This document shows positions 40,540 through 63,419 of a stretch of DNA of 64,000 nt, in pieces (the stretch's first letter is position 1; every line of letters begins with the position of its first letter). Both the position numbers and the translations under genes were made by a program. Source of the DNA: Haloplasma contractile SSD-17B (GTDB taxonomy: Bacteria > Bacillota_I > Bacilli_A > Haloplasmatales > Haloplasmataceae); the NCBI RefSeq assembly GCF_000215935.2, contig NZ_AFNU02000002.1, positions 372,001 to 436,000 of the forward strand. The letters run 5' to 3'. The notes beneath the pieces were generated by a model. It saw only the letters and a list, made by a program, of their open reading frames with translations, was not told where the DNA came from and did no database searches.

Positions 40540-42472
40540 GTCGAGTAGAAACAGCCATCACTGACTGAGGCCCTCACAGAACCGTGCAACATTATTCTTC
40601 TCAGTATTTTCTAATTGAATGTTTGGCTCATGTCCCAAGTGAAACTCCTCTTTTGACTTCTTCGATTAAGTGCTTTAAATAGTCCTTTTAACGTTTCATA
40701 ATAGAACGTTGTAATACTCTTGAAATTATCCGTTATTCCATAATAACGATAATGACCACCTAATCTAAGATTTATCCGTTTAATGAGGTCTTTCAAATTC
40801 ATATGCATGTTTTCTTTAATCCACTTTTTGATTCTCTTTACTTTAACAGTCAATTTCTTCAAGTAAGTTTTCAATTTCACTCTGAACTTGCCGTTTACAC
40901 TTTTACTACAATAGAACGTAAAGCCTAAGAAGTTAAATGTCTCTGGTCTTCTCATTCCTTTTGCTTTTCTATTTGTCTCAGCATATCGACCAAATTCAAT
41001 AATCTTTGTTTTCTCTTCCGCTATCTCAAGGTTGAATTTATTTAACCTTGAGATTAGATTATCGTAAAATCTCATAGCATCATCTTTATATTGGAAGCAA
41101 CACACAAAATCATCTGCATACCGAACAATATATGCTTCACCTCGACTATACTTCTTAACAACTTTTTCAAACCATAAGTCTAATACAAAGTGTAAATATA
41201 TGTTTGAAAGTACCGGCGAAATGAGGCCCCCTTGAGGCTGACCGAAGGGTGTAGTATGAAATTTTCCTTGTTCCATCACTCCTGTTTTTAGAAATTTATT
41301 AATCAAACTAATAAATTGTTTATCGGCAATACGATGTTTGACAAACTCCAGTATCCAGTCATGCTCTACATTGTCAAAGAAACTTTTAATATCAGCATCA
41401 ACCACATAGTTTACTCGCTTTGTTTGAATTGTGTTTCTCAATGCTTTTACTGCCTTGTGACAATTTAAATCTTTTCTAAATCCATATGAAGTTGTGAGAA
41501 ACATCGGTTCATATATAACGTTTAATATTTCAGTCATTACACGTTGAACTAATTTATCTTCATATGCTGGTATATCTAAAGGTCTTTTCTTCTTGGTTCC
41601 TACTTTATAAATGTAAACACGTCGTACCGGAAGGGGTTTTGTCTTTTCATTCTTGACAATAGATTATTTATATTTTCATTTAGTGATGATTGATAATCAA
41701 CTTTACCTACCTTATCGATACCACTTGCTTTAGTTGCATCCATAGAGTGATGACTTGAAGTTAATGTTTCTTTGTTAATATAATGCGTAACATTTTGTAT
41801 TTTATTATGTGGATTACGTTTAACTAGTTCTCTTATTTTAGATAGTTCGTTCATAATGTTGTTCACCTCTTGTGTGCAGTAATCTGAATCAATCTAAAAC
41901 TACAATGTGCTGCCCCCTTCCCTCCGCATGCTTTCACATACATCTACGGTAATATGAGACAGTCAGACTTCCTAAACAATGTTTGCTTGACTCGTTGCTA
42001 TCCTTGTCTTTGCATACAAACATTTATTGTTGTTCCTTTTCTAGAGAGAATACTCTTATACCAATTCACGACTGGTTGCCGTAAGAAATGTTTGATTGTT
42101 TAGGATCTCTCATGTTCCATTATCATAACGGTATCAAACTCGCCAGGTCTTACAACCCCGGGAAAGTTGATTACATCTCACCTTTACGATGTAATCAATG
42201 TTGTCTTCTGATTCTCCAAAACCATCGACCTTTCCAAACTCTGCCTTTCGAGGCTAATAACTTCAGTATACACTTCCGGCTTGAATGTTCCTTTGATTAC
42301 GCTTAAACCTTACATTACTGCTTCGGCGTAGGATCTAAGTGCTAGTTGTTGGTTAGACTTTACTAAGTGGGATTCACACCCACTATATGATAACAGCTTA
42401 CAAATTTAGAGTAATGTTACTCTAAAAGTGAACGAAGAAGCCTAATATGACTTCTTCGTTTACATGACGCAC
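40540..42472 (-). mobile_element. Group II intron copy 1 (defective)
   Basis: Minus-strand intron starting GTGCG at 42472 and ending CGAC at 40540, about 85-90% identical by eye to copy 2. It is broken in two ways: the reverse transcriptase frame is interrupted near 41630 by a small deletion, and domain V is lost (GAACCGTGC at 40594 runs into unrelated sequence instead of the second strand of the stem). It could splice only if helped, and probably not at all because domain V is essential. Confidence 0.85.
40611..41866 (-). pseudogene. Broken group II intron reverse transcriptase
   Basis: Two pieces: 41600-41866 (N-terminal 88 codons, ending in the wrong frame after NNLLSRMKRQ) and 40611-41537 (308 codons with the polymerase motif RYADDFV). 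Compared with the intact gene at 44936-46243, a deletion near 41630 (GGAAGGGGTTTTGTC against GGAACGGGTTTATAGGCTTG) breaks the frame. The C terminus also differs, ending DMSQTFN instead of continuing into the maturase end. Confidence 0.88.
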
Positions 42473-42598: not shown

Positions 42599-43105
42599 TT
42601 ATATGAATCTTCTTTTCAAATACAATACTTCAATGAATCCTTCGCATTCAGCTATCGAAAACTTAAAATCATCTCCATATATTTCTTTAAAAATTGAATA
42701 AGTTATTTCGCTAGTTAGTACATTATTTTGCATATTAACTAGAAAAGAATTTATGACTTCTGTGTAATTTATCACACTATAATTAAGGTTTGAAAAACCA
42801 ATCGGATCCCATAATTTAATCATTTTTTCAAGAATAGTATATACCTTGCAACCATCTTCTTGAATACAAAGATAAATTTGAGCTAAGTAATAACACTTTT
42901 TTTTACAGTGCTTAAACATTGTACCCCAGTGTTTAGAAAACACAGAATAAATAATTTCAGCAATTTCATCAGGATTATTGCTGCTTATTTTTTTTACAAT
43001 AAAATCAATATATGTGTCATACTCATCTTCTGGACACCCTGTATATAAGAGCTGTATGGGATCCCACAAATTTATTAGGGCTTTCATTGTTTTTATCTCA
43101 TTCAT
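42599..43105 (-). CDS. Probable immunity protein, two DUF1871-like domains
   Basis: 168 residues from the ATG at 43105. The start lies 1 nt after the toxin stop codon, and its GGAGG site is inside the last toxin codons, so translation is coupled. Two copies of the same motif are visible: INLWDPIQLLYTGCPEDEYD near residue 10 and IKLWDPIGFSNLNYSVINY near residue 105, each followed by a ...IYSVF..H(W/Y)G.. helix. The WDP...PEDEYD pattern is that of DUF1871. It most likely neutralises the toxin domain of the preceding RHS tip. Confidence 0.75.
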   Translation of the reverse strand: MNEIKTMKALINLWDPIQLLYTGCPEDEYDTYIDFIVKKISSNNPDEIAEIIYSVFSKHWGTMFKHCKKKCYYLAQIYLCIQEDGCKVYTILEKMIKLWDPIGFSNLNYSVINYTEVINSFLVNMQNNVLTSEITYSIFKEIYGDDFKFSIAECEGFIEVLYLKRRFI

Positions 43106-43106
43106 A

Positions 43107-44501
43107 CTAACCTCCAAATAAAACTCTTACTATTTCTTGTAGTCCTTCTCTATAATCTTGCCTTCCCATTACAGTAACTACCTGACCACCTTTATCTATT
43201 ATAACAGTAGCTCTAGGAGAAATATAAGCATATCTTTCTCCACCCCATTGTGAGAATGCATGGCCATTTTTAATAGTAGTATAAACCTCTTTTGTAGAAA
43301 CATTCCTTTGAGCCATTCTTTGTCCAGCATGAAGCCTTGATGAGAGCCAGCTAGCAGCTCTCTGCCCTACATAAGTAAATTTACCATTTGCAAATTTATC
43401 ACCTACTTGAATTGCGGTCTTAACCTCATTGGTCGCGTCTCCATCTGCTGTAACTGCACCACCGATAGTTGTTGATGTCCCTCCAGCACCTGCAGTAGTA
43501 GATGCAATTGCAGTTTGAGCGAGATAACCCGCTCCTGCTCCAACTAATGCACCAGCAACAGCACCTCCAGCTACATACCTCCAATCTACTTCTCCGGTAG
43601 TATAATATGAAACGGCCGCACCGGCTATTCCTCCAACAACACCTCCAATGATAGCCCCAGGAATTGCCCAAGCGATATATCCAGTAGGATCATACATCAT
43701 CACTGGATTATTAGAGGCATAAGCATACATATTGTACCCAAGTGGGTCACCTTCTCTACCGATTAATCCATCTGCACTTATAAACCTTCTTATCTCAGGA
43801 TTGTAATATCTGCTTTGTAAATAGTAATATCCAGTTTCCTCATCATATCGGTACCCTCGATATCGATATGAATTTTTTTCTGCAAGATTGACACCTGATG
43901 TATCTTCAACTTTAGTTATATTCCCCCATGCATCATACTCATATGATACCACTTCATTTCCACTAGAATCAAGTAAGTGAGTTATATCTCCTAATATATT
44001 AGTCACATAGAAGTATTCTACGTCATTTAATGTAATACTTATAAGTTTTCCATCAGTATCGTACGTATAGTAAATCGTATCTGTACCATTAGTTTCTGCA
44101 ATCACTTTGTCGCCATCTAAAGTGTATGTAGTTTTTGATCCTCCACCACATGTACTAACATTTTTTTCTGTTCTAATACCTTGATTGTTATATTTATAAG
44201 CAAAGGAATGACAGTAGCCGCTTATATTTGTTAGTTGTCTACCATCCCGAGTATAATTATCTGTATAATAAGATATTCTTGTATCTTCTATTTTTGTTAC
44301 ATTACCATTTGTACCGTAATAATATCTTTCAGTGTAATCAGTTGTTCCGTTTATTCTATATACAATGCTAGAAACTTGATCCTTCCATGTATATCCATAA
44401 TTAAATACCTTTTCTTCATTAGGTGTTGTAGGAAGATTAGAGGTTCTTATATTTTTTATATTTCCATTATGATCATATAAATACGTTTTTGTATAGTTTA
44501 T
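43107..44501 (-). CDS. Orphan RHS tip with a DUF4258-like toxin domain
   Basis: About 465 codons open from a stop at 44502; no full RHS gene lies upstream, so this is a displaced 3' end. It starts inside YD repeats (YTKTYLYDHNGNIKNIRTSN; YYTDNYTRDGRQLTN), passes through the RHS core end (RYRGYRYDEETGYYYLQSRY, RFISADGLIG, and the DPTGY cleavage-type motif near 142 residues from the GTG at 44105), then a Gly/Ala-rich linker and a C-terminal toxin of about 75 residues. The toxin has HAGQRMAQRNVSTKEVYTTI and TVIIDKGGQVVTVMGR, a DUF4258-like pattern related to BECR-fold RNases. Without an N-terminal export part it can act only after recombination with a complete RHS gene, or if read through. Confidence 0.8.
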   Translation of the reverse strand: MNYTKTYLYDHNGNIKNIRTSNLPTTPNEEKVFNYGYTWKDQVSSIVYRINGTTDYTERYYYGTNGNVTKIEDTRISYYTDNYTRDGRQLTNISGYCHSFAYKYNNQGIRTEKNVSTCGGGSKTTYTLDGDKVIAETNGTDTIYYTYDTDGKLISITLNDVEYFYVTNILGDITHLLDSSGNEVVSYEYDAWGNITKVEDTSGVNLAEKNSYRYRGYRYDEETGYYYLQSRYYNPEIRRFISADGLIGREGDPLGYNMYAYASNNPVMMYDPTGYIAWAIPGAIIGGVVGGIAGAAVSYYTTGEVDWRYVAGGAVAGALVGAGAGYLAQTAIASTTAGAGGTSTTIGGAVTADGDATNEVKTAIQVGDKFANGKFTYVGQRAASWLSSRLHAGQRMAQRNVSTKEVYTTIKNGHAFSQWGGERYAYISPRATVIIDKGGQVVTVMGRQDYREGLQEIVRVLFGG

Positions 44502-44935: not shown

Positions 44936-46243
44936 TTAGTTAAAAACACTTACATGTATCTTGGGTTTTAATAGCTTGTATTCAAAATACTTTATAAACT
45001 TGTCCCAAGTGAAACTCCTCTTTTGACTTCTTCGGTTAAGTGCTTTATATAGTCCTTTTAACGTTTCATAGTAAAACGTTGTAATGCTTTTGAAATTATC
45101 CGTTATTCCATAATATCGATAATGACCACCTAACCTAAGATTTATTCTTTTAATGAGGTCTTTCACGTTCATATGCATGTTTTCTTTAATCCACTTTTTA
45201 ATTATCTTTACTTTAACAGTCAATTTCTTCAAGTAGGTTTTCAATTTAACTCTAAACTTGCCATTTACACTTTTACTACAATAGAACGTAAACCCTAGAA
45301 AGTTAAATGTCTCTGGTCTTTTCATTCCTTTTGCTTTTCTACTTGTTTCAGCATATCGACCAAATTCAATAATCTTTGTTTTCTCTTCCGCTATCTCAAG
45401 GTTGAATTTATTTAACCTTGGGATTAGATTATCGTAAAATCTCATAGCATCATCTTTATATTGGAAGCAACACACAAAATCATCCGCATACCGAACAATA
45501 TATGCTTCACCTCGGCTATTCTTTTTAACAACTTTTTCAAACCATAAGTCTAATACAAAGTGTAAATATATGTTTGAAAGTAACGGCGAAATGAGGCCCC
45601 CTTGAGGCTGACCGAAGGGTGTAGTATGAAATTTTCCTTGTTCCATCACTCCTGCTTTTAGAAACTTATCAATCAAATTAATAAATCGTTTATCAGCAAT
45701 ACGATATTTGACAAACTCTAGTATCCAGTTATGGTCTACATTGTCAAAGAAACCTTTAATATCCGCATCAACCACATAGTTTACTCGCTTTGTTTGAATA
45801 GTGTTTCTCAATGCTTTTACTGCCTTGTGACAATTCAAATCTTTCCTAAAACCATATGATGTGGATAAAAACATCGGTTCATATATAATGTTCAGCATTT
45901 CAGTCATTACACGTTGAACTAATTTATCTTCGTATGCTGGTATACCTAAAGGTCTTTTCTTCTTGGTTCCTACTTTATCAATGTAAACACGTCGTACCGG
46001 AACGGGTTTATAGGCTTGTCTTTTCATTCTTGACAATAGATTATTTATATTATCTTTTAGTGATGATTGATATTCATCTTTACCTACATTATCGATACCA
46101 CTTGCTTTAGTTGCATCCATAGAATGATGACTTGAAGTTAATGTTTCTCTGTTAATATAATGCGTAACATTTTGTATTTTATTATGTGGATTACGTTTAA
46201 CTAGTTCTCTTATTTTAGATAGTTCGTTCATAATGTTGTTCAC
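44936..46243 (-). CDS. ltrA: Group II intron reverse transcriptase/maturase
   Basis: 435 residues. RT0-RT7 blocks are in order: KKRPLGIPAYEDKLVQR, YGFRKDLNCHKAV, DADIKGFFDNV, QGGLISPLLSN, and the active site RYADDFVCCFQ. A maturase/thumb domain follows (NFLGFTFYCSKSV; RINLRLGGHYRYYGITDNF). No HNH endonuclease domain is present, as in class C introns; such proteins prime on the replication fork. The start ATG is preceded by AGAGGTGAACAAC. The gene lies in intron domain IV. Confidence 0.93.
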   Translation of the reverse strand: MNNIMNELSKIRELVKRNPHNKIQNVTHYINRETLTSSHHSMDATKASGIDNVGKDEYQSSLKDNINNLLSRMKRQAYKPVPVRRVYIDKVGTKKKRPLGIPAYEDKLVQRVMTEMLNIIYEPMFLSTSYGFRKDLNCHKAVKALRNTIQTKRVNYVVDADIKGFFDNVDHNWILEFVKYRIADKRFINLIDKFLKAGVMEQGKFHTTPFGQPQGGLISPLLSNIYLHFVLDLWFEKVVKKNSRGEAYIVRYADDFVCCFQYKDDAMRFYDNLIPRLNKFNLEIAEEKTKIIEFGRYAETSRKAKGMKRPETFNFLGFTFYCSKSVNGKFRVKLKTYLKKLTVKVKIIKKWIKENMHMNVKDLIKRINLRLGGHYRYYGITDNFKSITTFYYETLKGLYKALNRRSQKRSFTWDKFIKYFEYKLLKPKIHVSVFN

Positions 46244-47291: not shown

Positions 47292-50200
47292 TTAACTTTT
47301 TATCATCATCTGATATATATTAAATAGTCTCTTTAATTGCCATTGGCTCAATGAATTTTCTTTAAATGCTTTTTCAACAAATTCTATTATTATTTGCTTT
47401 TGTATTTTACACATTTTAAATTTTTCATACAGGTTGTCAGAATAATTTAACAACCATTTTAACTCAAAAGTATCTACCTTAAACTCTGAAGGACATAATA
47501 AGAAATCATATTCCTTACAAATGCCACGATACTTTTCCGTAATAGAAGAGGGAAAATTGCGCATATACATATAAGCTGCAACTTTTCCGATATGATCTTC
47601 TGTACTTGGAATTGAATATTTTTCTATTCCACGTTCTTTGTTATCTTGTTTTTCTTTAACCTGTTCTTCCAAATATGTTTCAACTAATTGAAATTCATCA
47701 CAGGTCTTTGGCAGATTTCCAGAATAACCTAATGGCATTAACTGAAAAACATTATCTACTGAATACATAGGATTTATAATCTGTTTAGCCTCGTCATTCA
47801 CTAAAGGATAAATATATTTCAAACAGGACTCAACGCAAGCTAAATTGTCCTTGTTATCAATAATAAGTTCAGAAATTGCATCCTTGCTAAATTTATCTAC
47901 TTTGTCTATATCCAATAAAAATTGAGCAATCATTGAAATATCTGAGATTGCATTGTCATTTGCTTTTGAAGGGATTTGATTTTTTAACACAGGTATGATT
48001 TTTTTAAGTAACCATTCTTCAATAATTAGAGAGGATCTCTCTACCTTTGCTGTTTGTATCCATTTATTTATTATTCTTATCCTATTAGAAATATCAAAAT
48101 ATCCATCTTCAATATTTATAATAAATTGAACAGCATCTAATTTACATTCATTACTAATTACAAAGTAAGGAGCAATAGAAAGAAGTATTTTAATTTCTTC
48201 ACTATATGATTTCCAAAGAAATATCTCTCCTCCTTTTAAAGTTTCTCCAAACGTACTTTTATAGGTTTCGAGTTGTAACATTATATAAATTTCCAACTCA
48301 TAACTTTCATCAAATGGTAGAATTCTTAAATCGATTTTATTTTCAAGATAATTAATATCATCTTTTTTAAAATTCTTAGAAATCAGAATTATATCTGTAA
48401 GAGTAAACTTACTACGAGAATTTGATATTATTCCAAATTCTTCACGATTAATTTTAGATACTTCTTTATAATATGCTTCCAACCACGATATCATTGCAGT
48501 TTTTATGTAGAGTTTATTCTCATTAAACCCTGCAAATAAAATCATGTTATCATAGATAAATTTTGTTGTTTCTAACATAGTTAGTTTAACCTTATCAAAC
48601 TTAGATACTCCAAAATACATCGTATTTTTTTGAAGTGACTTTGCTACTTCATACTTTTCTTTTGTAAGTTCATAGTATTTATCTATAAAGCAGTTACGTT
48701 TAGAAAAATGACTTAAGGTTGTGTATTGAGCTTTAAAAGCATATGGTAGTTCAGAAAACTGCGTTTTTAATTGGTGATTTCCCATTTCGTAATTTAAATG
48801 TTCAATAAAAACATCATCAAATATTTTTAACTCTTTTCCGAAATTAGATACCCCTTTAATCCCTGTAGATTGGTATATCCTTTGTTTAATAATTGAGAAC
48901 AGATAATGTCTGTTAATCTGTGAAAAGTAATATATATCCCACTCTCCTGCTTCTTTTGTTTCCTTAAGAATATTAGTATACAAACTATAACTTTCTTTAT
49001 AATTTCCTAAATGTGCTAAATAATATGCTTTTTTATAGTTGTCTTTTGTAGTAAAGTATTCAACATTACAAAATTCTCTCATATATTCATGATGCGATGA
49101 AAAAGCAGGATTTTCTATGTTAATATCAGGCCAGATAAAACTATCCTTACTTTCTATTCCTTTGACTTCAGCTTTATCAAGGAACTTCTTTACAGTAATA
49201 TATCTATCCTCATCGATAAATTTATATTCTTCTTCGCGTTCCCAAAAATCTTCAAAAAAATCTAATCGTACATTGTAAACTGTTCTTAGTTGATTGTTTT
49301 CATCAAATACTGTCTCATGAGTTTTTGTCTTGTTAATAATTTTCCATTGATTATTTAATTCGTACTCTCCTCTGAATAGACTATTAAAATCCTCACGTCT
49401 AATATAATCCAAATTCTTCAGACCGACTGTTTTTTCATACATATATTCTAATTTGTGCATTCTATCTGCTAAATCAGCGTCATTATTATATGTAAGTATG
49501 GTTTGCAATACGGAGCGATACTTGACCAGATAATCTGTATCACTTGTGTAATCATTACAGTCAAGAACTCTTAATCCACGACCTTCTTGATATGAAAGTT
49601 CAATATCACTTAACCTTTCTCCAGTATGTATAAAAATTGGCATTACAAAGGAATCCGACTGTACATTTTTGACCCAATTTAAGATCAACTTAATATTGTA
49701 ATCATTCAAGGCATAACCAACGAATAAAACAAGATTAGTTGCAAATATCGTTTTGACCAAGTTATCAATTAGTAAATACTTATTTTCATAGTCTAAGTAA
49801 TCTTGCTCTTTCAACACAAATTCATCAGAAAAATCACCATGCACTTTTAATATATAATTTGAAGTTTCAGCCCCAGCAACTACTTTATTTGAATTTAAAA
49901 CACTAAAATTCCGCCCAAATTTAATAGCAGTCTCTTCAAGCAATGTATCATAATTGGTAGTCAGCATATGATTTGGATGTAATGACAATATTAAGTCATG
50001 TATCTCATTTGGGGTACAGTTATTTTTGAAACTATTATCAACTTTTTTTCTATAAATATCCTCCCCTTTATTAAGATAATACATCTGCGGAATCTTTAAT
50101 AATTCATCTGGCGAAAAATCCGCATCTTCATTATAATCTTTCTTATATAAGTATCCTATTTCATCTGCCATATCCTGCACTAATCCGCGCCAAGAAGGAA

Positions 50201-50297
50201 AACCTGATAATCTTGAAATACCAGCTCCAACGAATACAGATAATTTTCCTAATCCTGAATAACGTTTAATATCTTCGAGTATGTCTATGTTTTTCAT
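47292..50297 (-). CDS. DSR2-type defence-associated sirtuin
   Basis: 1001 residues, the same length as Bacillus DSR2. Residues 15-290 are a SIR2-like NADase (KLSVFVGAGISRLSGFPSW; TTNYD with Asn115; KVHGDF with His153; LFVGYALNDYNIKLILNW). The rest is a long helical repeat region, including FSQINRHYLFSIIKQRIYQS near 470, a stretch that also looks alike in DSR2. DSR2 binds phage tail tube protein and then destroys NAD+, halting growth. Both catalytic residues are present, so activity is expected. Phage-encoded DSAD-type inhibitors were not seen. Single-gene system at the left part of the island. Confidence 0.88.
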   Translation of the reverse strand: MKNIDILEDIKRYSGLGKLSVFVGAGISRLSGFPSWRGLVQDMADEIGYLYKKDYNEDADFSPDELLKIPQMYYLNKGEDIYRKKVDNSFKNNCTPNEIHDLILSLHPNHMLTTNYDTLLEETAIKFGRNFSVLNSNKVVAGAETSNYILKVHGDFSDEFVLKEQDYLDYENKYLLIDNLVKTIFATNLVLFVGYALNDYNIKLILNWVKNVQSDSFVMPIFIHTGERLSDIELSYQEGRGLRVLDCNDYTSDTDYLVKYRSVLQTILTYNNDADLADRMHKLEYMYEKTVGLKNLDYIRREDFNSLFRGEYELNNQWKIINKTKTHETVFDENNQLRTVYNVRLDFFEDFWEREEEYKFIDEDRYITVKKFLDKAEVKGIESKDSFIWPDINIENPAFSSHHEYMREFCNVEYFTTKDNYKKAYYLAHLGNYKESYSLYTNILKETKEAGEWDIYYFSQINRHYLFSIIKQRIYQSTGIKGVSNFGKELKIFDDVFIEHLNYEMGNHQLKTQFSELPYAFKAQYTTLSHFSKRNCFIDKYYELTKEKYEVAKSLQKNTMYFGVSKFDKVKLTMLETTKFIYDNMILFAGFNENKLYIKTAMISWLEAYYKEVSKINREEFGIISNSRSKFTLTDIILISKNFKKDDINYLENKIDLRILPFDESYELEIYIMLQLETYKSTFGETLKGGEIFLWKSYSEEIKILLSIAPYFVISNECKLDAVQFIINIEDGYFDISNRIRIINKWIQTAKVERSSLIIEEWLLKKIIPVLKNQIPSKANDNAISDISMIAQFLLDIDKVDKFSKDAISELIIDNKDNLACVESCLKYIYPLVNDEAKQIINPMYSVDNVFQLMPLGYSGNLPKTCDEFQLVETYLEEQVKEKQDNKERGIEKYSIPSTEDHIGKVAAYMYMRNFPSSITEKYRGICKEYDFLLCPSEFKVDTFELKWLLNYSDNLYEKFKMCKIQKQIIIEFVEKAFKENSLSQWQLKRLFNIYQMMIKS

Positions 50298-55332: not shown

Positions 55333-56970
55333 TTATTCTTTCTTTTGATCATTATCACTTGCATTGTTCATTATATAACTACTTAATATTCCTAATAGTA
55401 AAGCAAAGTAAATGAACCCCTGTAGTGACAAAATCATAGACCATATTTTGCCCATGAAAGTATTTAAAGTGACATCTCCATAACCCACTGTAGTAATTGT
55501 AATTACAGTGTAATAAAAGTAATCAATTGTACTTATTTCGCTATTTACAGTACTTAATGCTGAAGCATCAAACTTATGTAAAATATAGGTAACATATGTT
55601 GCATAAAATATAATGTAAATAAACATAAATAAAAAATATTTAATAATACTAATTTGTTTATTCTTATTCCGGTATAGAAAAATATTTATATCCTTAAAAA
55701 GAAAGATAATATTGCCCAAAAATAATATTATAAAACCGATCACTAATGAGTATAGCATAAGATCATAATATGTGTTATCTGGATTTTTAATGATTGAAAA
55801 AGAAGATAGCAGTATAAGTAATAATGAAATTACTATAGGTATGGCACCTCTACTGCCTAATTTATTTTCCAGTTTGTTTGGAAGTACGAATACAAACCAT
55901 GATAAAGTCACTAAAAATGTATTTATTATTAACAAACCAAGCATTATACTACTATATACAAATGGTAGACTATTCTCTGAATTTAAATTGTTAAAAGCGA
56001 CATATATAAACAATCCATTAAAGCTTAAGATTCCAATTATATATGCAATTGTATACAGTCCTATAGCATAATTTTTTATAGTGCTTATGCTATTATTCTG
56101 TTTAGTAAATTTTTCTTTAATATTATTTGATAATAATGACAATGTTTCCTTAAATATAGTCTTAATCATCTTTAAAGGTGAAAGGTTAACAATGATAGTA
56201 CTAAAGGTTATACTTAATAACCCTTCAAATATTAATGGGATGACATCACAATTATTATAAAAATAATTGATTATTGAGAAAATTAATAGAAACCAAGTTA
56301 CAAATGAGAAAATTTTCTTTACGTTTAATTCTTCATTAACATTAAAATTTTTATTAAATGTTTTCTCTTCAAATGGCCTTATTTTTTCTATATATCCAAA
56401 TGATTTTCTATTTTTAATGTCATTAAAGTAATTCCCAAACCCTATTATACTATTATCCTCTGGTTCGAAATCTACAATACAATATCCTTTATGGTCATTC
56501 ATTGTTTCTGTAGAATTTCCATTTGCCTGATTTTCATATTCATAAGATAGCTGAAAGCTATCCACTTTCGTTATATCTAAAAATCCATTTACATTACATG
56601 ACATGGATGTATCAGTTTGTAATTTTATTTTTATTTTAGTAAACGTCTGTTTAATTGTTATAGTACACTCTTTCTCAGTTTTAGTACTCTGATCTGAATA
56701 TGAGGAAATTATTTTACCCTTCCACTTTCCATTAAGGTTCGGTATGTTAAATATTTTTAACTTCCATAATAAACTGTTAAAGAGGTTAAATATTAACCAG
56801 TATAATAAACTAAGTGAAATAATATAAAATAATAATTTAACATTTTGATCCTGGCTATCTTTTAAAATTATTTCAAAGTAAACATAGACTATAAGTGCTA
56901 TACCTGCAATTCCTACAAATACCTTACTCCTATCAAACCCTTTTATTTCATATTTCTCCATATTAATCAT
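55333..56970 (-). CDS. CBASS effector: Cap15-like sensor fused to a potassium-channel pore
   Basis: 545 residues. Two TM helices (about 15-36 and 45-68) precede a beta-rich domain at 79-198 (IPNLNGKWKGKIISS, ITIKQTFTKIKIKLQTDTS, IIGFGNYFNDIKNRKSFGYI) that matches the SMODS-associated 2TM beta-barrel of Cap15, which binds the cyclic nucleotide. Then come about six more TMs (219-430) and a two-TM pore module: TM 445-465, pore loop with TVGYGD at 494-499, TM 506-534. TVGYGD is the K+ selectivity filter. Cap15 by itself is only about 200 residues, so the C-terminal channel is an extra module. Inferred action: nucleotide binding opens a K+ channel and depolarises the infected cell. Last gene of the CBASS operon, 18 nt after cap3. 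Confidence 0.85.
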   Translation of the reverse strand: MINMEKYEIKGFDRSKVFVGIAGIALIVYVYFEIILKDSQDQNVKLLFYIISLSLLYWLIFNLFNSLLWKLKIFNIPNLNGKWKGKIISSYSDQSTKTEKECTITIKQTFTKIKIKLQTDTSMSCNVNGFLDITKVDSFQLSYEYENQANGNSTETMNDHKGYCIVDFEPEDNSIIGFGNYFNDIKNRKSFGYIEKIRPFEEKTFNKNFNVNEELNVKKIFSFVTWFLLIFSIINYFYNNCDVIPLIFEGLLSITFSTIIVNLSPLKMIKTIFKETLSLLSNNIKEKFTKQNNSISTIKNYAIGLYTIAYIIGILSFNGLFIYVAFNNLNSENSLPFVYSSIMLGLLIINTFLVTLSWFVFVLPNKLENKLGSRGAIPIVISLLLILLSSFSIIKNPDNTYYDLMLYSLVIGFIILFLGNIIFLFKDINIFLYRNKNKQISIIKYFLFMFIYIIFYATYVTYILHKFDASALSTVNSEISTIDYFYYTVITITTVGYGDVTLNTFMGKIWSMILSLQGFIYFALLLGILSSYIMNNASDNDQKKE

Positions 56971-56988
56971 TTTCCTTTATAAGTTTTA

Positions 56989-57480
56989 TTAGTTTTTCAT
57001 TTTTTCAAATTCAATAATTTTTTTATTAGAAGTAAAAAACGATAGATGAATACTTGAATCTACTCCAAGAATAAGAGCAAATACACCATTAATTTCAGTT
57101 TCATTTTTTTTAGCCAGAATCTTATGTGATTTTATGTCTTCTGAAGATAGGAAAGCTGAACAAGGGTGCGTATGCCATTCACCTAAATATGTTATTTCTT
57201 CATCCTCTACTTTTCCATTATAAAAATTAAAATGCTCAATACTTCTAACAAATTTTGAATATTCCCTAATATCCGTTTCAATTGGGTACGTTACTTTTTC
57301 AAAATAAAATGATTTTTTGCTTTTTGTAATATAACCATAAATCATACCACCTGCTTCAAGAAATAAATTATCTTCGCATAAAAACTTAGAAATATCTTTT
57401 AGTATACGTTTTTTAATATATACAGTGTTATCAGATGTTGATTTAAATTTTAAATACTCATTCAAAGTCCACCACCTCAA
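56989..57480 (-). CDS. cap3: CBASS Cap3, JAB/JAMM-type peptidase
   Basis: 163 residues. JAMM metalloprotease residues are all present: Glu42 (LEAGG), His103 and His105 (GEWHTHP), Ser112 and Asp115 (SSED). Cap3 removes the Cap2-linked cyclase from its targets and so tunes the response. It overlaps cap2 by 23 nt and precedes the effector gene. A bacterial JAB protein next to an E1-E2 protein and a CD-NTase is diagnostic of type II CBASS. Confidence 0.92.
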   Translation of the reverse strand: MRWWTLNEYLKFKSTSDNTVYIKKRILKDISKFLCEDNLFLEAGGMIYGYITKSKKSFYFEKVTYPIETDIREYSKFVRSIEHFNFYNGKVEDEEITYLGEWHTHPCSAFLSSEDIKSHKILAKKNETEINGVFALILGVDSSIHLSFFTSNKKIIEFEKMKN

Positions 57481-59011
57481 CCGAATTAGATTTACTAAAG
57501 GTATAATATTTGCTTTTCAATCGTAAGGAATATTCTATACTATTTGATAAATCTCCTATATAAACTTTTACATTAGATCTAATATCTTGATTAATAAACT
57601 CCAATATGTCACTTGATGCTCCATACAAGAATTTTTTCACTTTCACTACTGAATATTGAACAAATCTACTAGAGCATCCAAATTCCCTTAAATATAAATC
57701 ATTATCCTTTTTTAATACTGAGAAGTTGTAATTTAAATTATCATCGAATATATCCTTATCAAAAGGATTTACACCTGAAGCATAAATTATATGACCGGCT
57801 ATCAAATAAGGTTCAACAAATACGATCATAAATTTTAATCTAGGATATTTTTCTTTTAAATACTGACATAGTGCATATTCAACATTTCTTTCTCCTGCAG
57901 TAATTATTAAAGTATCTGTATTATCCAATATTCTCGATATATCATCGATTTGTAAAATTGATTTAGAATAAGCGTTTATTTTTACATATGGGTATTTTTT
58001 TATTAATTCGTCTTTTATTGCGTTTGCTTTAAATTTACCAGTCGAATTATAATTACATATATGACGTTGTATATTTTGAAAACTTAATTTATCATGATCA
58101 ATAATATTAAAATTATAATACCCAGCTTCACATAACATATTAATTAAATTAGAGCCGACAGACCCACAACCTACTATGGTAATTCTTTTTTCCGAATCAC
58201 TCATTAATCCACTACTGCCCCTATAAAATACATTTTCAATCGACGTGTTATAAAAACAATATTTAACATAATTTTCTAATTTATAATCAATATGTTCAAT
58301 ACTAATAGTTTTTTGATTGCTGCTGATTTTTGTCTCCCCAACTTGATAGCCTATAAAGATATATTCACTTTCATGTTTCATTCCAAACACAAGGTATTTT
58401 ATTCCTTTACAGATATTCATTAAATTTGATGAGTATTTTCTAGATATAAATTCATTTATGCTATTTATATCTTTTACTAAAAGTTCTCTATAGTCAAAGT
58501 CTTTATTGACTTCTCCTAAATATAAGTATTTTCCTTCAGTTGAACCTACTTTTTCAATAACAATTTCATTTATAATAGCAAGATTATTATAATTTTTTTC
58601 ATAATTTTCAAGTAAAATACCCTTTTGATTTGCTCCAGACCAAAAGTCATATATTTCATCCAAAGTACTTTTAAGACTTTGTTCTTCTCCAACTATATAT
58701 TTTATTAATTTACGGAGAACTTCAACATAAACTTCTAGACCCATCCGCGGATTAATTGTAACTGTATTATCATAAAGACAAATCCTATTTCCATAGTTAA
58801 ATAATCCTGACTTATTTATAACTCTGGTATCAAAATAATAAATATCAGGAATTTTGTAAACTGATACAGGTTCTTTAAAATACACTCTATGGCTCTCTTT
58901 ATTTATACCTAATTCCACTATAACTTTTTTTTCATCTATATGCGAATCAAAACCCTCATTCTTTAGATATTCAGCTAATTTTTCCAAATCATAATTATTA
59001 AGCTGTTTCAT
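57458..59011 (-). CDS. cap2: CBASS Cap2, E2-E1 fusion ligase
   Basis: 517 residues. The N-terminal part is E2-like, with NRICLYDN giving a candidate catalytic Cys78. From about 275 it is an E1/ThiF adenylation domain: VGCGSVGSNL, then DHDKLSFQNIQRH for ATP/Mg contact, and a second catalytic Cys446 in LREFGCSSRF. Cap2 activates the C terminus of the cyclase and joins it to cellular targets, which primes nucleotide synthesis. It is slightly shorter than usual Cap2 (~600). Its start overlaps the cyclase gene by 14 nt. Confidence 0.9.
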   Translation of the reverse strand: MKQLNNYDLEKLAEYLKNEGFDSHIDEKKVIVELGINKESHRVYFKEPVSVYKIPDIYYFDTRVINKSGLFNYGNRICLYDNTVTINPRMGLEVYVEVLRKLIKYIVGEEQSLKSTLDEIYDFWSGANQKGILLENYEKNYNNLAIINEIVIEKVGSTEGKYLYLGEVNKDFDYRELLVKDINSINEFISRKYSSNLMNICKGIKYLVFGMKHESEYIFIGYQVGETKISSNQKTISIEHIDYKLENYVKYCFYNTSIENVFYRGSSGLMSDSEKRITIVGCGSVGSNLINMLCEAGYYNFNIIDHDKLSFQNIQRHICNYNSTGKFKANAIKDELIKKYPYVKINAYSKSILQIDDISRILDNTDTLIITAGERNVEYALCQYLKEKYPRLKFMIVFVEPYLIAGHIIYASGVNPFDKDIFDDNLNYNFSVLKKDNDLYLREFGCSSRFVQYSVVKVKKFLYGASSDILEFINQDIRSNVKVYIGDLSNSIEYSLRLKSKYYTFSKSNSVEVVDFE

Positions 59012-59930
59012 TTTTATTTTTTACAATAGCTCTTTTAGGATTAGTTATAATTTTACTACTATCTAATTTATTTACTTTAGGGAATCTATCGCCAAATAAT
59101 GATTGAAATTTACTATTTACAATGTCAACACTTTCGGTTTCTTCAATTTTACTTAATTTTAATATCAACGATTGTAATCTAGATGAGAAAACATCTCTTT
59201 GATTAGATGTAAGTTCTTCAATTACATCATTATATGGTTTATAGGGTTTTCTACAAATAAAATTAAAATTTAAAGTATCAAATAACCTCGTAGCAACATA
59301 TTGGAAACTAGAAAATATATCACCTTGATTAACATATAATTGTGAACATAAAATTGTTATTGCTAAGCCAGAAAACTTAATACTTTGTTTATCTTTCCAA
59401 GCTTTAAATAATTTTATTATTCTACGCAATTCTTCTCCTTTTTCTTTAACTTGTTCTCTAAACCAATCAGTATTTTCACTAGGATAACTTTCCATCCATT
59501 CATCATTGCCACGTGCTAGATAATTCACATTACCAATTTTTAAATATACAGGTAAATCAATATAATAATCTTTAGATGAATAATCTACTCTAACACAAGA
59601 TTTTTTTATCTTTGTTTTTGGACCTGTGTGCTCATCCACTACTTCTTTTAATTTATTTTTTACTGTTTGAGGAGAATAAAAATCATATGGATTTGAATTA
59701 TCTATTGTTATATATACACCCATATCAAGATCATATTTTTTCCCTCTTATTGGATTAATCAGTGTGCTCATATCATAAGAACCTTGTCCTTTAAAATCTA
59801 TTTTATAATCTTTGTAAAACTTACCTATTATTAACCCTTTTATTGCATCACGGCTTTTTCTTAGGTCAACACTTTTTAAGTTACCTATAGTTATTATATC
59901 AATAAAGCTATTAATTTCTTTTGTATACAC
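58998..59930 (-). CDS. cdnA: CBASS cyclic oligonucleotide synthase (CD-NTase)
   Basis: 310 residues from the GTG at 59930, chosen for the TGGAGGGG site 6 nt upstream; the frame opens at 59990 but the extra 20 residues lack a site. It has the nucleotidyltransferase core: KGQGSYDMSTLI (Gly50-Ser51), YDLDMGVYI (Asp67, Asp69) and a third acid in YYIDLPVY (Asp125). All three metal-binding acids are kept, so it should be active. The C terminus ends ...KNETA; an exposed small C-terminal residue fits its use as Cap2 substrate. First gene of the operon. The nucleotide product cannot be told from sequence. Gene symbol is generic. Confidence 0.9.
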   Translation of the reverse strand: MYTKEINSFIDIITIGNLKSVDLRKSRDAIKGLIIGKFYKDYKIDFKGQGSYDMSTLINPIRGKKYDLDMGVYITIDNSNPYDFYSPQTVKNKLKEVVDEHTGPKTKIKKSCVRVDYSSKDYYIDLPVYLKIGNVNYLARGNDEWMESYPSENTDWFREQVKEKGEELRRIIKLFKAWKDKQSIKFSGLAITILCSQLYVNQGDIFSSFQYVATRLFDTLNFNFICRKPYKPYNDVIEELTSNQRDVFSSRLQSLILKLSKIEETESVDIVNSKFQSLFGDRFPKVNKLDSSKIITNPKRAIVKNKNETA

Positions 59931-60052
59931 ATTACCCCTCCAAATTTTTACATATATTAACATTATAATACAAACTAAGTAAAAAAACAAAAATATATTA
60001 AAGGATACTATTGCACTTTAATTAAACAACAGTTTTTAAATTATAAATCCTG

Positions 60053-60964: not shown

Positions 60965-61744
60965 CTACTTCAAGTGATTAACAATCATTGAAATAAATTC
61001 TATATTTGTTGGTTTTGCTTTTGATAAGCTAACGCTATCATTAAATATTTGAGAAATGGCATCTATATTTCCTCTATTCCACGCAACTTCAATCGCATGT
61101 CGTATCGCTCGTTCAACCCTTGACACAGTTGTTCTATATGTTTTAGCTACATTGGGATATACAATATTAGTAATAGAATTTATTAAATCATTATTTTCAT
61201 AAACTAATAGAATAGATTCTTTTAAATATAAGAAGCCTTTGATATGAGCAGGCACTCCAATTTCATGTAATATATTCATAATTGGGCTATAAAGCTCATC
61301 TCTATTGTATTTTAGATTATAAGATTTTTGACAATCAAAAGTATTCTTATTTTTTAGCTTATTTGTACAATCTGTAATCTCGTTAATAACCTTAATAATA
61401 TAACTTGGTTGTGTTGGTTTTACTATAAAGAAGTCAACATCTAAACTAACTGCCTTTAATAATGCATATTCTGAATAAAAAGTAGAAATTAATATTATGT
61501 TTTTTGGTTTTTTATATTGTGAACTATCTCTTTGTAGTTCAGTTAAAAATTGATATCCATCTAGATTTGCCATCAATGGGTCCATAACTAAGACATCAAT
61601 CTCTGTGTGTTTTATGATTTCTAGTAATCTACTACTATCGTTAATATATTTTATTACTTCTAGATTCCCCTGTGCTTTTACATGCTTCATCAGTAAATCT
61701 CCATGTTGTCTATGATCACATAATAGAACTTTAATTTTTTTCAT
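60965..61744 (-). CDS. Spo0A-like response regulator (divergent paralogue)
   Basis: 259 residues from the ATG at 61744 (AAGGTGGAG site). Residues 1-118 are a receiver domain: phosphoacceptor Asp55 in [15 protein letters not shown], Ser/Thr switch in ILISTF, Lys109 in FIVKP. The usual acidic pair near residue 10 is reduced to one Asp (LLCDHRQ). The C-terminal half is the Spo0A DNA-binding domain: [48 protein letters not shown]. Spo0A is the master switch of sporulation. The weak acidic pocket and its place inside an ssrA-linked island suggest an extra copy, not the housekeeping one. Confidence 0.8.
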
Positions 61745-61871
61745 TGTTTTCTCCACCTTATTATCTTTTTTTTGTAAAATAGTAATTAAAGTAATTTTAT
61801 ATTAACTTTATCTATAAATAAACTTTAAATATTACTAATATTATTTACTATAAATTATTTATAAGAATAAT

Positions 61872-63046: not shown

Positions 63047-63419
63047 TGGTGGAGATGGCGGGAGTCGAACCCGCGTCCGAAGATACCGATCACTCAAGTT
63101 TCTACAGGCTTAGTCTATCTATTAAAGTTTAACTAGTAAGTTGCCAACAGACAGGCGACCTAACTAGCGAGTTCGCGAAGTCTCTTCCTAATACCTCAAA
63201 CGGCAGTTTTAGGCGTATCCCACTAAGTCTGGGCTCCTAAACGGCTACATGGGCGATAGACGAATGGAGCGCTACGAATATATTACGCAGCTAGTGCTAG
63301 GTTGTTAAAACTAGCAGTTTTGTTTGTTTTTCCGGTTATTAAACCTCGACAGTTTAACGAGATGCAAGCTCGACCTGCTTCTTAAGCTCAAATAGCCCCG
63401 TCGAATCCGTAACATCCCC
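63047..63419 (-). ncRNA. ssrA: Transfer-messenger RNA
   Basis: About 373 nt. The 5' end GGGGATG pairs with CATCTCC before the encoded ACCA 3' end, forming the tRNA-like acceptor stem. The T-arm GGACGCGGGTTCGACTCCCG is present. The tag frame reads GKTNKTASFNNLALAA then TAA, with the classic LALAA degradation end. It works with SmpB to rescue stalled ribosomes. It lies 185 nt after smpB. The last 15-19 nt are duplicated at 46852-46866 and a T-arm piece recurs in the R repeats, so this 3' end looks like an integration site for mobile islands. Confidence 0.95.

Follow-up and report, generated by a model that had tools for sequence, protein, structure and literature searches.

Cap15 proteins (S-2TM-beta; PF18153; PDB 7N34 and 7N35) are effectors of cyclic-oligonucleotide-based antiphage signaling systems (CBASS) and are characterized by two N-terminal transmembrane (TM) helices and an eight-stranded beta-barrel. 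As far as the available text of the sources goes, activated Cap15 oligomerizes and disrupts the inner membrane (PMC12657218, PMC12657230, PMC10419184, PMC10686824), Cap15 has also been reported as an oligomer in the absence of ligand, and the conformational changes of the TM domain on ligand binding are, according to a 2025 preprint, not known for effectors of this type (PMC12642688). The subject here is a CBASS operon from Haloplasma contractile SSD-17B (NZ_AFNU02000002.1, positions 372,001–436,000; this 64,000-nucleotide stretch is referred to as the window, and coordinates are those of the window unless a comparison locus, given by an L number, is named). Its effector has the two TM helices, the barrel and the operon slot in common with Cap15, but whereas 42 intact Cap15s stop after the barrel, it continues with a K+ channel of 330 residues. 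The locus is therefore classed as a type II CBASS, and its effector as derived from Cap15 but lacking one feature of the family, that of ending after the barrel.

A Cap15-like receptor made up of two TM helices and a barrel is also found in OptE (2TM-beta) of the Panoptes system, which differs in that it has mCpol as partner and is of inverted sign, and for which the available part of its description mentions no channel domain. Type III CRISPR systems, too, use nucleotide-driven membrane effectors, namely Cam1, Cap1 and CorA; in the text available, Cam1 and Cap1 are reported to depolarize the membrane, and CorA is considered likely to do so (PMC12642688, PMC11229360). These resemble the effector proposed here in that a membrane protein responds to a nucleotide second messenger, and differ in their sensors (CARF, CARF-like and CorA-type) and in that the accessible parts of these sources mention no K+ filter. 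For CARF-TM proteins the formation of ion channels has been proposed in a review, again as far as its available text goes (PMC9704534). Finally, SthK, MloK1 and HCN are K+-type channels with six TMs in which a soluble nucleotide-binding domain controls gating. Structure comparison lists them among the matches to the channel half of our effector, a result that relies on the Kv-type channels aligned for the model. In these channels cyclic mononucleotides are sensed by a C-terminal domain, whereas the sensor of the effector is the N-terminal Cap15 barrel; if our inference is right, the effector would work like a nucleotide-gated channel. None of the literature matches listed is a CBASS effector with a K+ filter, in agreement with a first-pass annotation made from the letters of the window, which knew of no described CBASS effector with the same combination. 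The sensor, the channel and the type of operon have all been described before; what does not appear among these matches is their combination.

The effector and its two halves

The effector gene (55333–56970, minus strand) is read in a single uninterrupted frame of 545 codons. Given its base composition, the probability that so long a run is free of stops by chance is about 10^-23. Translation may start at the second ATG (Met4, 56961) instead of the first, because the sequence GGA, which resembles a ribosome-binding site, ends 2 bases before the first ATG, and because the relatives L011 and L026 have the pattern M-x-x-Y-x-I there. No in-frame ATG, GTG or TTG is present between codons 157 and 268, so that there is no internal start from which the channel half could be made alone and in full, and its separate translation was dropped as an explanation. 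That Cap15 and channel are fused in one polypeptide is clear from the reading frame.

The Cap15 half begins with two TM helices (residues 14–69; 56764–56931, minus strand), which are recognized by hydropathy, by the PADLOC 2TM effector model, which covers residues 4–199 (6.6e-36), and in an AlphaFold2 model (helices 14–36 and 40–66). They are followed by the eight-stranded barrel, the predicted cyclic dinucleotide receptor domain (residues 74–199; 56374–56751, minus strand), of which residues 74–195 match Pfam Cap15_CD_rec (PF18153) at 3.8e-24. The effector sequence also matches the solved Cap15 from Yersinia (4.4e-8) and, in hhalign, a profile of 18 Cap15s (6.3e-21), and 13 alignment columns are invariant between the effector and 18 other Cap15s. 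In the model there are eight strands over residues 81–199 (block pLDDT, predicted local distance difference test, 74–95), and the best PDB match of the modeled barrel is Cap15 7N34 (Foldseek 3.6e-6; VIA-align Z 15.0, root mean square deviation 2.5, 108 aligned). Unrelated barrels come next in VIA-align with Z 13 and below, and because they reach such values the Cap15 assignment is carried more by the sequence matches than by the fold.

The channel half starts with six TM segments (residues 215–433; 55672–56328, minus strand), found by hydropathy and alignable with stand-alone channels. These are followed by S5, pore loop and S6 (residues 439–534; 55369–55656, minus strand), which brings the number of TMs after the barrel to eight when overlapping hydropathy windows are merged. 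The pore loop carries the exact K+ selectivity filter motif TVGYGD at residues 494–499 (55474–55491, minus strand), with no sign of decay, and the half thus has the S5–pore loop–S6 order and the T-V-G-Y-G filter of a K+ channel. Residues 460–534 match Pfam Ion_trans_2 (1.3e-10), residues 443–532 match the Kv4.2 chain in the PDB (5.2e-8), and a second model, for which Kv-type channels were aligned, shows the helices S5, pore helix and S6. The first-pass annotation had described the effector as a Cap15 layout with a barrel at residues 79–198, "about six TMs" and a pore module resembling K+ channels at 440–535 with TVGYGD at 494–499. Profile and structure comparisons bear out the Cap15 layout, the pore module and the position of the filter, whereas the TM count has to be refined to six plus S5 and S6.

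Whether the channel is needed for killing can be asked at this point. Both N-terminal TM helices of Cap15 are retained within the stretch covered by the 2TM effector model, and plain Cap15 elsewhere is a membrane-disrupting effector, as far as the available sources tell. The Cap15 half might therefore still kill by itself, with ligand-driven oligomers of the 2TM-barrel part disrupting the membrane and with the channel serving as an extra anchor or as a minor leak. Because the two helices are kept, membrane rupture stays a second live option beside K+ loss. We nevertheless regard it as unlikely, since a full eight-TM channel with an intact, undecayed filter would be a costly anchor.

Channels of the same 8-TM type (six TMs plus S5–P–S6) without a Cap15 part occur as stand-alone proteins in the class (L053, L055, L059, L063–L065 and, distantly, L002), and by eye the neighbors of L053, L062 and L002 show no CBASS genes. 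They share with the effector the stretches GFI-LL/FL--N, INIF before S5 and the GYGD filter. L053, a channel of 366 amino acids, aligns over effector residues 220–545 with 25% identity (1.4e-16 in a small database), and in hhalign a profile of five stand-alone channels matches residues 317–538 (8.6e-15). Because of these two alignments the channel half is taken to correspond to a whole stand-alone channel, and the existence of the stand-alone genes suggests that it is a self-contained unit. L002, the second channel of the same genome, is related distantly (35% identity over 60 residues). When the channel half was searched for in the class, 27 of 149 genomes matched at E 1e-3 or better, the own genome included, and 26 of the 32 match rows start no earlier than position 203 of the 335 in this half, in the region of the pore. 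Neither the channel half nor two of the stand-alone relatives match any PADLOC model. In five of the stand-alone channels (L055, L059 and L063–L065) S5 and the pore loop are separated by an insert of about 100 residues that contains VYD..G-like repeats and presumably sits outside the cell; the fused channel is without it.

Counted from a cytosolic barrel, the loops 270–301 and 434–438 and the C-terminus come to lie inside and the filter loop outside. The ratios of basic to acidic residues, 6:2 and 3:0 in the two loops and 1:4 in the filter loop, are compatible with this orientation of barrel and filter. Voltage-gated Kv channels have regularly spaced arginines in S4; the segment 400–433, which aligns with the Arg-rich S4, contains one Lys and no Arg, and voltage gating was rejected. 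The second model of the channel half resembles Kv, HCN and SthK folds (Foldseek best 2.0e-4; best Z 12.6), a likeness that is partly built in because the model was aligned on Kv-type channels, and helical proteins can reach such a Z by chance. The identity of the second half as a channel rests on sequence, not on the model.

The operon, its sister and the search for a second fusion

The effector gene stands in tandem with three others on the minus strand (55333–59990) in the order CD-NTase, Cap2, Cap3, effector. By their coordinates, CD-NTase and Cap2 overlap by 14 bases and Cap2 and Cap3 by 23, and a gap of 18 bases separates Cap3 from the effector. Pfam and PADLOC assign to all four genes the names that the first-pass annotation had given to its four overlapping or adjacent CBASS genes. 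Both effector halves and the other three genes are alike in G+C content (0.24–0.26). A promoter scan gave no excess over chance (72 matches versus 71.3 expected). With Cap2 (E2–E1) and Cap3 (JAMM) both in the operon, it is classed as a type II CBASS.

The CD-NTase (58998–59990, minus strand) is DncV-like. It probably starts at 59930, a start which is plausible because there is an in-frame GTG and because homology to the enzyme of the sister operon (see below) begins at residue 21. It matches Pfam DncV-like_NTFase (8.8e-21) and SMODS (2e-11), PADLOC Cyclase (4.5e-68) and the solved CD-NTase 7ljo in the PDB (1.4e-19), and it scores 148.2 bits against the NCBIfam model of CBASS cGAMP (cyclic GMP-AMP) synthase, slightly below the cut-off of 150. 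The GS...DxD motif of the active site is intact (GSYDMST...DLD; GSYDMSTLINPIRGKKYDLD at residue 70), the third acid lies in YYIDLPVY, and the acidic residues align with those of 7ljo, all of which fits the active-looking enzyme of the first-pass annotation. Panoptes membership was considered and rejected: an mCpol partner is required, and the partner here is a DncV-like CD-NTase according to both Pfam and PADLOC. CD-NTase queries matched 175 plasmid records, of which two were inspected. On a Gloeocapsa plasmid a related CD-NTase (33% identical) adjoins a gene annotated as cGAMP-activated phospholipase, a lead that hints at a cGAMP-like signal for the enzyme of the window. A CD-NTase search of 50 genomes of the class matched two, one of them the window's own.

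Cap2 (57458–59011, minus strand) is an E2–E1 fusion with GCGSVG at residue 281, matched by PADLOC E1-E2 over residues 205–512 (2e-58) and by ThiF (1.6e-18). Cys446, the candidate E1 cysteine, and the loop glycines are invariant across the three Cap2 rows aligned. The candidate E2 cysteine, Cys78, is the sole Cys among the first 130 residues; no E2 model matched this part, which is assigned to E2 from its position and the Cys motif. Cap3 (56989–57480, minus strand) is a JAMM/JAB protease with EAGG at residue 42 and HTHPCSAFLSSED at residue 103, matched by PADLOC JAB (1e-23) and by Pfam Prok-JAB with 23.7 bits, slightly below the cut-off of 25. Its JAMM spacing, HxHx6SxxD, has one residue less between HxH and SxxD than that of L023, and one less than the textbook spacing; it is common to the window and the sister operon (Cap3 at L203:4070–4552).

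This sister operon, L203, comes from another genome of the same class and contains CD-NTase, Cap2, Cap3 and Cap15 in the same order, with identities to the window of 49% for CD-NTase (310 residues), 35% for Cap2, 45% for Cap3 and 30% over 84 residues for the Cap15 part. Its Cap15 is plain and ends at 198 amino acids, with a gene for an Mrr-type nuclease next to it. Nothing indicates more clearly than this plain Cap15 in the same slot that the effector consists of an ordinary Cap15 with a channel attached. The fusion proposed in the first-pass annotation holds up in that both halves are recognizable, appear to be complete and occupy the slot of a plain Cap15 in L203. Two further arrangements of Cap15 genes were observed. 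In a Clostridium metagenome-assembled genome (L023:9696–11538) a Cap15 N-terminus, 49% identical to the effector over 51 residues, is split by a UPF0236 gene, probably a transposase, within an otherwise similar CBASS operon. In Pseudomonas viridiflava (L036:9758–11429) tandem Cap15 genes of 251 and 208 amino acids lie beside one CD-NTase.

The fusion was not found a second time. All searches were of samples of genomes, contigs, plasmids and phages, to which their negative results apply; they were not exhaustive, and metagenomes were outside their scope. Pfam searches and one species-wide contig scan together yielded 44 distinct Cap15 loci besides that of the window (L026, L043 and L050 were left out as duplicates of L007, L014 and L027, and L040 was judged false by eye). 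None of the 44 is fused: 42 end after the barrel, with 160–251 amino acids as against 545 codons here, and two are not judgeable, L008 because it runs off the contig end and L023 because of the interrupting UPF0236 gene. The recurrence beside CD-NTases by which the first-pass annotation had proposed to check the fusion is thus not seen in these loci. It should be noted that a CD-NTase, Cap2 or Cap3-like gene is near Cap15 in 41 of the 44 (L007 seen via L026, on the same contig), a count that is circular for the five loci used in the profiles (L004, L005, L006 and L023 for CD-NTase; L010 and L023 for Cap2/Cap3); L009, L019 and L039 have no such gene within the stretch examined.

The Cap15 Pfam model matched in 8 of 395 genomes from the window's class, the own included, and in 5 of 392 from the phylum, all repeats of the class search; in the order it was 1 of 8, the own. 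Two other phyla gave 8 of 296 and 3 of 299 genomes, with one in each already known, and the class of the L023 genome gave 4 of 391, three above the cut-off and the fourth (L040) below. In the species-wide contig scan the effector alone gave 36 pattern matches and no relative, and a 3-row Cap15 alignment gave 53 matches in 26 loci, none fused. When the genomes behind 15 of these 26 loci (without L016) were searched with Pfam, 13 of 14 matched, the exception being the genome of the interrupted L023. Nor was an unfused pair of Cap15 and channel seen: the 48 stretches L004–L051, many reaching about 1.5 kb per side, contain no open reading frame of at least 90 residues with a K+ filter. Plasmids gave one weak match to the effector (E 2e-4, in the Cap15 part), none to the channel half and none to the operon DNA, and phages gave no match.

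Viral contigs yielded no relative with the effector, the CD-NTase and two of three alignments. A scan of these contigs for TTVGYGD found at least 120 stretches, and of the 106 filter frames in 120 of these none has a Cap15 part; the best Cap15-profile score among these frames was E 0.038 (6 bits, filters off), compared with 3.3e-33 for the effector. The third alignment found two channels of the Kv type, an identical protein of 268 amino acids at L081:5530–6336 and L082:5530–6336. In L081 it is flanked, according to Pfam, by helix-turn-helix and IrrE-like genes and a phage integrase, which points to a prophage-borne K+ channel.

The fusion is rare and perhaps unique to this lineage. A single occurrence, with none among 44 other loci and two of these not judgeable, is also what would be expected if the genes had recently fused by accident in one strain, or if the assembly were chimeric, with no selected function for the linkage. 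This we consider very improbable, however: the frame is open over 545 codons, with both domains recognizable along their length and the filter intact, and the G+C content is like that of the rest of the operon on a contig of 472 kb. In addition, even the best full-length stand-alone relative found has only about 25% identity to the channel half, and L002 from the same genome has 35% over 60 residues; because of these identities the half is not a fresh copy of any channel seen here.

Proposed mechanism and what it would mean

We consider it most likely that binding of a cyclic nucleotide to the barrel would open a K+-selective pore, clamp the membrane potential and drain the cell of K+. Gating of the pore by the barrel, which we infer, fits the anatomy of the protein. 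Upon infection the CD-NTase would be activated, with Cap2 attaching it to targets and Cap3 removing it, as these proteins do in other type II CBASS. The enzyme would then make a cyclic dinucleotide, cGAMP-like judging by the enzyme family, which would bind to the cytosolic barrel. The Cap15 parts would assemble and pull the fused channel open, channel opening being the novel step. K+ would run down its gradient, so that the potential would be fixed near the K+ equilibrium value and cell K+ drained, and K+ loss and clamp together would bring the cell and its phage production to a halt with no large hole in the membrane. Since a pure K+ pore fixes the voltage, a dependence on external K+ is predicted.

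The coupling could also be the other way around, the channel conducting at rest or without ligand and the nucleotide closing or restraining it. The sign of the coupling is not readable from the sequence, and OptE, a relative of Cap15, is according to the available part of its description of inverted sign and held inactive by its nucleotide. Yet the operon, with a CD-NTase and not mCpol, is a type II CBASS of the ordinary kind, and plain Cap15 fills the same slot in L203, which makes inverted coupling quite improbable. Because Cap15 is reported to be oligomeric also without ligand and OptE to be inverted, the proposed sign of the coupling and the proposed assembly step are tentative.

Opening of the pore by the nucleotide, the reading that we prefer, also has several points against it. 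Opening a pore selective for K+ alone would not necessarily be lethal; its main effect would be a voltage clamp unless other ions move. The reported oligomerization of Cap15 may or may not suit a tetrameric pore. The orientation in the membrane receives no help from the N- and C-terminal tails (basic to acidic residues 2:3 each) and the barrel region (20:20), which are uninformative. The first model, with Cap15 relatives aligned, has low confidence in the channel half, and the second is middling there (mean pLDDT 66, no residue above 90). There is no second example of the fusion that would speak for its selection. Ligand binding, gating, K+ selectivity and phage defense are all predictions.

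Taken more broadly, the Cap15 barrel would replace the usual cyclic-nucleotide-binding domain and open a 6TM-type K+ pore in response to a CBASS cyclic dinucleotide, with defense by voltage clamp and K+ loss instead of rupture. The effector would then be the first immune effector known as a ligand-gated, K+-selective channel, and Cap15 a portable gating module. For this wider statement the chances appear to us about even. If true, it would mean that a selective leak of ions is among the ways in which CBASS can act, and that the phenotype of infected cells would be a change in potential and a loss of K+ with dye still excluded, which would call for different counter-measures by phages. It would also provide a new modular nucleotide-gated channel that could be used as a tool. 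With a pore of known chemistry on a Cap15 sensor, the ligand-driven transition of a defined channel becomes testable. The fusion as such suggests that in this cell the response to a virus is the opening of an ion channel.

Genomic neighborhood

The region from about 48 to 62 kb of the window has a G+C content of 0.25–0.28, and that from 28 to 38 kb is nearly as low. The fourth gene downstream of the effector (47292–50297, minus strand) encodes a SIR2 protein of 1001 amino acids that matches PADLOC ThsA models (7.3e-28) and is likely a second defense gene. Further on lies a gene for a reverse transcriptase of 435 amino acids (44936–46243, minus strand; RVT_1 1.7e-34), in which no maturase domain was found at E 1e-3 and which could be a defense reverse transcriptase or one of a group II intron; a second reverse transcriptase gene, with a weak maturase match, is at 40611–41537. 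Between them (42599–44105, minus strand) an RHS/DUF4258 gene, both matches being below the Pfam cut-offs, is followed by a DUF1871 gene, and the pair may represent a polymorphic toxin tail and its immunity gene. Upstream of the operon are a gene for a Spo0A-like response regulator (60965–61756, minus strand) and a transfer-messenger RNA gene (63047–63419, minus strand), which the island may adjoin.

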